Assembly (NCBI GenBank): GCA_903842445.1
Contig: CAIMLT010000027.1
Coordinates: 1 to 38,450, forward strand
DNA: 38,450 nucleotides
DNA from: an uncultured bacterium
Lineage (GTDB): Bacteria > Patescibacteriota > Minisyncoccia > Moranbacterales > UBA2206
Direction: 5' to 3'
The translations under genes and the position numbers were made by a program. A model generated the notes under the pieces. The model ran no database searches and had not been told where the DNA came from. It saw only the letters and a program-made list of their open reading frames with translations. Positions 30,396 to 35,633 of the stretch are shown one piece after another. How positions within the stretch are numbered: position 1 is the first letter of the stretch; each line of letters opens with the position of its first letter.

Positions 30396-30650
30396 TTATT
30401 TGATCAATTTCTTTTTGACATTTTTGAAGTTTTGATCATCAAATTTTCCCATTTTTTTGAGCTTGTTCACAACTTTGCGAACTTTAACTTTATACATCGC
30501 ACCAGCACGAAGCTCTCTTTTGCTTTTTTCATCCTGTCGAAAACGAACTTTCCGCGCACGCATCAAAACTCCACTCTGTTGAATGCGACGACTAAAACGC
30601 CTAATTAGGCTTTCTGGCGATTCGCGTTCCTTCTTTTTTACTTCGATCAT
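30396..30650 (-). CDS. rpsU: 30S ribosomal protein bS21
   Basis: MIEVKKKERESPESLIRRFSRRIQQSGVLMRARKVRF; strong SD AAAGGAGG. Confidence 0.88.
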   Translation of the reverse strand: MIEVKKKERESPESLIRRFSRRIQQSGVLMRARKVRFRQDEKSKRELRAGAMYKVKVRKVVNKLKKMGKFDDQNFKNVKKKLIK

Positions 30651-34859: not shown

Positions 34860-35405
34860 ATGAAACTAATAATTGGACTGGGAAATCCTGGTCAAAAGTA
34901 TGAAACGACAAGGCACAATCTTGGCTTTATTTTTCTTGATAAATTGCGCGCGCTATGGTCTTTTCCTAGTTTTAGATTAGAAAAAAAATTTGACGCAGAA
35001 ATCTCTCAAGGAGAATTTAATGGCAAAAAAATTATCCTCGCCAAACCGCAAAATTTCATGAATCTGTCCGGTGAAGCGGTCAAAAAAATTATGACTTTTT
35101 ATAAAATCGATGCCGGAGATTTATTGATTATTCACGATGATATTGACATTTCTTGTGGAAAATTTAAACTCGCGAATGATTCAACTTCTGCCGGACACAA
35201 CGGGGTGCAAAATATCATTGACCGCTTGGGCACAAAAAAATTCGCTCGCTTGCGAATTGGGGTTAAAAATGAAAATGCGGATGAAACCGAAAACCAGATA
35301 GAAGTCAGTGATTTTGTTTTGGGAAAATTGACAAGCGGAGAGCTCGAAAAAATAACCGCGACGGAAAGATTAGTTTTAGAAGAAGTAGAAAAAATTATTT
35401 CCTAG
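34860..35405 (+). CDS. pth: Peptidyl-tRNA hydrolase
   Basis: MKLIIGLGNPGQKYETTRHNLGFIFLD, KPQNFMNLSGEAV, HDDIDISCGKFKL, GHNGVQNIIDRLGTKKFARLRIGV. Confidence 0.96.
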   Translation: MKLIIGLGNPGQKYETTRHNLGFIFLDKLRALWSFPSFRLEKKFDAEISQGEFNGKKIILAKPQNFMNLSGEAVKKIMTFYKIDAGDLLIIHDDIDISCGKFKLANDSTSAGHNGVQNIIDRLGTKKFARLRIGVKNENADETENQIEVSDFVLGKLTSGELEKITATERLVLEEVEKIIS

Positions 35406-35416
35406 CTTTTGATTTC

Positions 35417-35577
35417 CAAGGTTTCGTACGCAAGATTGTATCCTTTTTAGAATTATCTAAGAAAAATACTTTTGACTTACTCGCGAAAACTAAGGAGGGT
35501 GTTTTCACTTTCAAACTTACGCACGAAACTTTGAAAAACAACTTGAAAAAATGACAAATTTTCAAAAATAACACTAA
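35417..35577 (-). ncRNA. Candidate structured non-coding RNA with anti-SD-like loop
   Basis: Consensus promoter at 35584-35612; 22-nt inverted repeat arms 35417-35438/35512-35533; internal hairpin 35485-35506 with loop ACCCUCCUUA. Confidence 0.45.
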
Positions 35578-35583
35578 CTGGAT

Positions 35584-35612
35584 AGTATAGCATTAAACTT
35601 GATTTTTGTCAA
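35584..35612 (-). promoter_or_regulatory. Promoter TTGACA-N17-TATACT reading into the pth intergenic region
   Basis: -35 at 35607-35612, -10 at 35584-35589 on the minus strand. Confidence 0.75.
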
Positions 35613-35618
35613 ACAAAA

Positions 35619-35633
35619 AAGCCAGGGTGGCTT
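35619..35633 (-). terminator. Terminator AAGCCA-CCC-TGGCTT + T-rich tail
   Basis: Minus-strand hairpin followed by TTTTG. Confidence 0.5.

Follow-up and report, generated by a model that had tools for sequence, protein, structure and literature searches.

A structured RNA with an invariant CCUCCU loop recurs across the bacterial phylum Patescibacteria

Main

Several bacterial RNAs carry sequences that resemble the anti-Shine–Dalgarno (aSD) end of 16S rRNA. In Sinorhizobium meliloti, the RNA NfeR1 uses aSD motifs in its loops to block translation in trans, and the αr14/cuckoo sRNAs of alphaproteobacteria are trans-encoded RNAs in which the loop aSD motifs are ultraconserved while the stems diverge (PMC10746234). 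A different tie to translation is found in OLE RNA of Bacillota, an RNA of about 600 nt that binds the ribosomal protein bS21 at a CCUCCU-containing stem in its P6 region, where CCUCCU is identical to the 16S tail and is base-paired to a Shine–Dalgarno (SD)-like strand (PMC12054373). Here we describe a previously undescribed folded RNA of ultra-small bacteria that probably controls translation, although its transcription, its targets and its mechanism are inferred. Searches restricted to open-access literature found no prior description of this RNA, nor any description of a non-coding RNA particular to the Patescibacteria (Candidate Phyla Radiation).

The RNA shares with the αr14/cuckoo sRNAs an aSD motif exposed in an unpaired hairpin loop, here the P2 loop in 68 of 68 members. 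Whereas those sRNAs consist of three hairpins each bearing CCUCCUCCC, the Patescibacteria RNA has one CCUCCU loop within a three-way junction closed by a stem of 22–25 bp. We found no sequence relation between the two, and the exact CCUCCUCCC is not repeated in three hairpins here. By analogy, the RNA resembles αr14/cuckoo sRNAs without being related to them, and that it represses mRNAs in trans by covering their ribosome-binding sites is an inference from that likeness.

A promoter-associated RNA beside pth

The window analysed here, a 38,450-nucleotide stretch of DNA, is contig 27 of a 0.98-Mb Candidatus Moranbacteria-type genome (host genome). An earlier note, made from the sequence alone, had proposed a structured non-coding RNA with its own minus-strand promoter, TTGACA-N17-TATACT at 35584–35612, placed just past two terminator-like hairpins and with a strand supported by G-U pairs. 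The promoter held, ranking best among nine promoter-like sites in the 3 kb scanned. Its placement held too: one hairpin just upstream was confirmed at 35633–35619, a second is visible in the sequence at about 35690–35655, and both stand between the RNA and the upstream AAA/NMP-kinase-like gene. The statement that no ORF of useful length is present broadly held, as only chance ORFs of 59 and 38 codons overlap the RNA. Features of the locus are collected in Table 1.

Table 1 Features of the RNA locus in the window (A6, alignment of 68 members)
Feature	Position	Strand	Basis or comment
Sigma-70-type promoter, TTGACA-N17-TATACT	35584–35612	−	Extended TGC before −10; start expected near 35577
Inferred transcript	35400–35577	−	3′ end unresolved, near pth stop codon; basis fold z and covariance model match
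P1 5′ arm, long closing stem	35516–35540	−	24/24 P1 pairs with two-sided changes (A6)
GAA, 5′ strand of loop-E-like internal loop, P2 arm	35510–35512	−	GAA or CAA in 64/68
P2 upper hairpin (35508–35501 paired with 35490–35483)	35483–35508	−	8/8 pairs with two-sided changes (A6)
P2 apical loop, ACCCUCCUUA	35491–35500	−	Contains invariant CCUCCU, 35498–35493
AGUA, 3′ strand of loop-E-like internal loop	35478–35481	−	AGUA or GGUA in 59/68
P3 hairpin, variable	35438–35469	−	14/14 pairs with two-sided changes (A6)
P1 3′ arm	35410–35434	−	Same 24 P1 pairs, two-sided changes (A6)
pth, peptidyl-tRNA hydrolase	34860–35405	+	Pfam PF01195, 3.6e-55; tail-to-tail neighbour, context, outside RNA

Comparison with shuffled sequence on both strands, a check that the earlier note had suggested, supports a stable fold. 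Over 35578–35400 the MFE is −48.5 kcal/mol for the minus strand (z −5.26) versus −35.9 kcal/mol for the plus strand (z −4.04), and on neither strand did any of 200 shuffles do as well. A covariance model (CM) matches 35410–35541, defining the RNA core as 35541–35410 on the minus strand, with a score of 131.8 bits on the minus strand versus 34.6 bits on the plus strand. Across the 68-member alignment, G-U cells number 438 versus 36 A-C cells, which fixes the RNA strand as minus. The note's individual pairings also held as described, both the arms 35512–35533 and 35417–35438 with their two G-U pairs and 1x1 mismatches and the enclosed hairpin GUGAAAAC-N10-GUUUUCGC.

The RNA forms a three-way junction in which the P1 closing stem supports a P2 arm and a P3 hairpin. 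A GAA/AGUA internal loop, putatively loop-E (bulged-G)-like, interrupts the P2 arm. A short lower P2 helix is present in the wider class. P3 is missing in four relatives (L144, L147, L149 and L152), and some relatives retain only a single long hairpin with a CCCUCCU loop. We considered whether the CCUCC loop pairs with P3 as a pseudoknot and rejected this, since on inspection the pairing is not preserved across sequences.

Other members vary in and around P3. One genome, G025, carries two copies of the RNA on two contigs (L033 and L014) that differ mainly in P3. The RNA of two further genomes contains a 65–80-nt inverted-repeat insert between P2 and P3 (L137, about 930–1180 on the RNA strand; L048, 1499–1696), and in L137 a similar palindrome (CCCGCACTAACTTT...), resembling a mobile palindromic repeat, also lies just upstream of the promoter.

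Recurrence and covariation across the phylum

A DNA search of 55 relatives recovered clear homologues, some from the same genus and some from elsewhere in the family. Eleven of these, aligned with plain MAFFT (alignment A2), yield 46 pairs in three helices, 16 of them with two-sided changes. Covariance models R1, R2 and R3 were grown from these homologues. Among 131 genomes of the order, R1 detects the RNA in 30; R2 detects it in 23 of 384 genomes sampled in the class, Paceibacteria (including at least seven families outside the order), and R3 in 25 of 380 genomes sampled in the phylum, 24 of the last lying outside the class. The RNA thus recurs across the phylum Patescibacteria, in a minority of genomes as judged by CM.

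Every one of the 46 pairs has two-sided changes in alignment A6, with 989 such cells versus 297 ± 17 in shuffles, and none of 500 shuffles was as good; A2 gives the same answer on a smaller scale. Pair cells in A6 are paired in 93.3% of cases versus 39–48% when partners are slid, a percentage that leans towards the model because A6 was fitted to it. The earlier note had named conservation and covariation in relatives as a check on its proposal, and both were found; compensatory changes, strand polarity and the promoter all hold in relatives. What it had missed is the recurrence across the phylum and the invariant CCUCCU loop.

In a sensitive phylum sample, the CM finds the RNA in 4 of 39 genomes, about 10%, the host genome included. 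Such prevalence is underestimated because the CM requires P3, and it is also possible that absence from many genomes is real. Three members of the same genus (G001, G003 and G006) gave no sign of the RNA, either in CM searches or on folding of the pth-side region. A loose pattern gave 51 hits in 84,980 genomes, among which the CM confirmed only those in Patescibacteria; R3 had no match in 30 non-Patescibacteria genomes from that set, a small negative control.

An invariant loop in a predicted transcription unit

CCUCCU occupies the P2 apical loop in every one of the 68 members, where it is unpaired in the predicted structures, and it is the sole sequence invariant across all of them. The loop reads CCCUCCU in 52 members, and nearly all have U or A after CCUCCU. 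This hexamer is identical to the 16S aSD core, although the 16S 3′ end of the host itself is absent from the assembly; the exposed loop is therefore inferred to be able to pair with GGAGG sites. Because CCUCCU was already in the seed alignments, CM hits are partly biased towards it and its invariance stems in part from the seed. A CM-independent view comes from 25 further genomes in which the CM found little or nothing: folding of the pth-side region there took no account of the motif, and in 9 of them the best local fold next to pth contains CCUCCU. Several of these nine folds are one long hairpin without P3, which identifies the rod plus loop as the core of the RNA.

Signals of a separate transcription unit are conserved alongside the fold. 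A TTGACA/TATAAT pair matching at least 10 of 12 positions lies within 130 nt upstream in 58 of the 66 members with enough upstream sequence, versus about 6% of control stretches drawn at random from the same loci, and an exact TTGACA precedes a −10 in about 60 of the 66. Several members have a GC hairpin and U run directly after the RNA. The promoter is thus a shown feature of the family, whereas transcription remains unproven.

Gene order is similarly constant. Of the 68 loci, 59 have pth downstream and tail-to-tail with the RNA, and 33 have dprA upstream and divergent from it; both neighbours are encoded on the strand opposite the RNA, in unvarying orientation. The window differs in having the NMP-kinase-like gene upstream in place of dprA. 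That the order dprA–RNA–pth occurs within the class and beyond it points to a single ancestral locus passed on vertically. At five loci (L024, L027, L044, L048 and L052), small unrelated ORFs, often membrane-like and with a strong SD, follow directly after the RNA.

Comparison with described RNA families

No Rfam family, OLE RNA included, matches the RNA. At gathering thresholds, Rfam found only tRNA in the window, and matches around the RNA at E values up to 10 were chance ones only, such as plant microRNA precursors. The earlier note had offered either a 6S-like RNA or a novel sRNA. The 6S option is not supported: neither the window nor the host genome nor any of 15 distant loci has an RF00013 match, and in one genome carrying the RNA (G167) a sub-threshold 6S-like match sits elsewhere. 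The second option is supported as far as a novel RNA family goes, sRNA action being inferred. 6S RNA and the RNA described here are both stable, rod-like and served by their own promoter, but the latter carries an invariant loop motif absent from 6S RNA, differs from it in predicted junction topology and has no match to the 6S CM. Small SRP RNA is ruled out as an identity, as RF00169 matches neither this RNA nor any other part of the host genome, whose SRP RNA may be divergent or may not have been binned.

Three genomes of the class contain 6S-like matches of 30–33 bits, under the 46.4-bit cut-off (L181, L182 and L183), and these may be divergent Patescibacteria 6S RNA.

Proposed occlusion of Shine–Dalgarno sites

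The reading that best explains the locus as a whole, which we consider as likely to be right as wrong, is a trans-acting RNA that occludes SD sites. It is inferred without transcript, target or expression data. A strong sigma-70 promoter would give a transcript of about 150–180 nt that folds into a rigid P1 rod bearing the P2 arm; the loop-E-like bend in P2 would present the open CCUCCU loop, which would pair in trans with GGAGG SD sites of mRNAs, and this pairing would block 30S binding or destabilize the mRNA. On this reading the locus encodes a structured non-coding RNA that stands alone and that Patescibacteria inherit vertically.

SD use in the host bears on the reach of such a mechanism. 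Upstream of 543 host genes, SD-like tetramers form only a small peak between −15 and −6, and they are lacking before most of the window's 21 larger genes, in a survey blurred by start-site errors and by masking of part of the fetched sequence. Only a minority of host genes thus appear to bear an SD, and the RNA would therefore regulate a subset of mRNAs, not all translation. Putative targets with a strong SD include a bS21-like ORF in the window, an HU gene and a T4SS pilin gene. Ranking 51 start sites by loop:mRNA duplex energy essentially reproduces the order of SD strength, with some contig-end artefacts, and places a uppS-like gene with GGGAGGGGG at the top. Too few cases were available to show any host preference for GGAGGG over GGAGGU.

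Among alternatives, the one we rate highest, though still as rather unlikely, is that the CCUCCU loop binds a protein instead, the RNA acting as a decoy or ribonucleoprotein whose loop mimics the 16S rRNA 3′ end and captures bS21, Era or another translation factor, coupling the state of translation to the amount of the bound protein. OLE RNA offers a precedent, as it binds bS21 at a CCUCCU site that imitates the SD:aSD duplex (PMC12054373), and the same window encodes the bS21-like ORF with its strong SD. Loop-E-like bends are a common protein site. Against this, CCUCCU is paired in OLE RNA but every member here presents it in an open loop, most loops read CCCUCCU (52/68), unlike the ACCUCCU of 16S, and the S21 match of the window ORF is under the Pfam cut-off. 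A general brake on translation, or an mRNA-stabilizing store in slow growth that pairs all SD-bearing mRNAs at once, would suit the strong near-consensus promoter of almost all members and the broad conservation, but we consider it unlikely: host SD use looks low, which would limit any global effect through the SD, and there are no expression data.

We likewise doubt a cis-acting leader that sequesters the SD of the gene just downstream. About 10 of 43 loci do have a good-SD ORF within about 60 nt downstream, but these ORFs are not homologous to each other, which rules out a leader of one gene family; in the window, as in many relatives, nothing but the convergent pth comes next, and elsewhere a terminator stands directly after the RNA. 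Least likely of all is a 6S-like RNA that sequesters RNA polymerase by mimicking an open promoter. The long imperfect rod with a central junction would fit, and the absence of an RF00013 match in the host genome could leave the 6S role vacant, but neither the window nor distant loci have an Rfam 6S match, conservation falls on a loop motif, not on an open bubble, and the weak 6S-like match in G167 sits on a different contig from this RNA.

Returning to SD occlusion, a bolder reading, which we lean slightly against, is that the RNA is an ancient Patescibacteria regulator that predates the split of the classes and, as a mimic of the 16S 3′ end, determines which mRNAs get translated in cells where protein regulators are very few and SD use is low. 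Across the phylum the RNA keeps a fixed position among genes, and its covariation support is of the quality seen in housekeeping RNAs; if its loop does pair with SD sites, translation throughout a phylum of reduced-genome organisms would be under the control of an RNA. A ready covariance model is provided for use with metatranscriptomes.

The bS21-like ORF of the window lies at 30396–30650 on the minus strand and matches Pfam PF01165 with an E value of 0.0096, below the cut-off; its strong Shine–Dalgarno sequence, AAAGGAGG, is unusual for this SD-poor contig.
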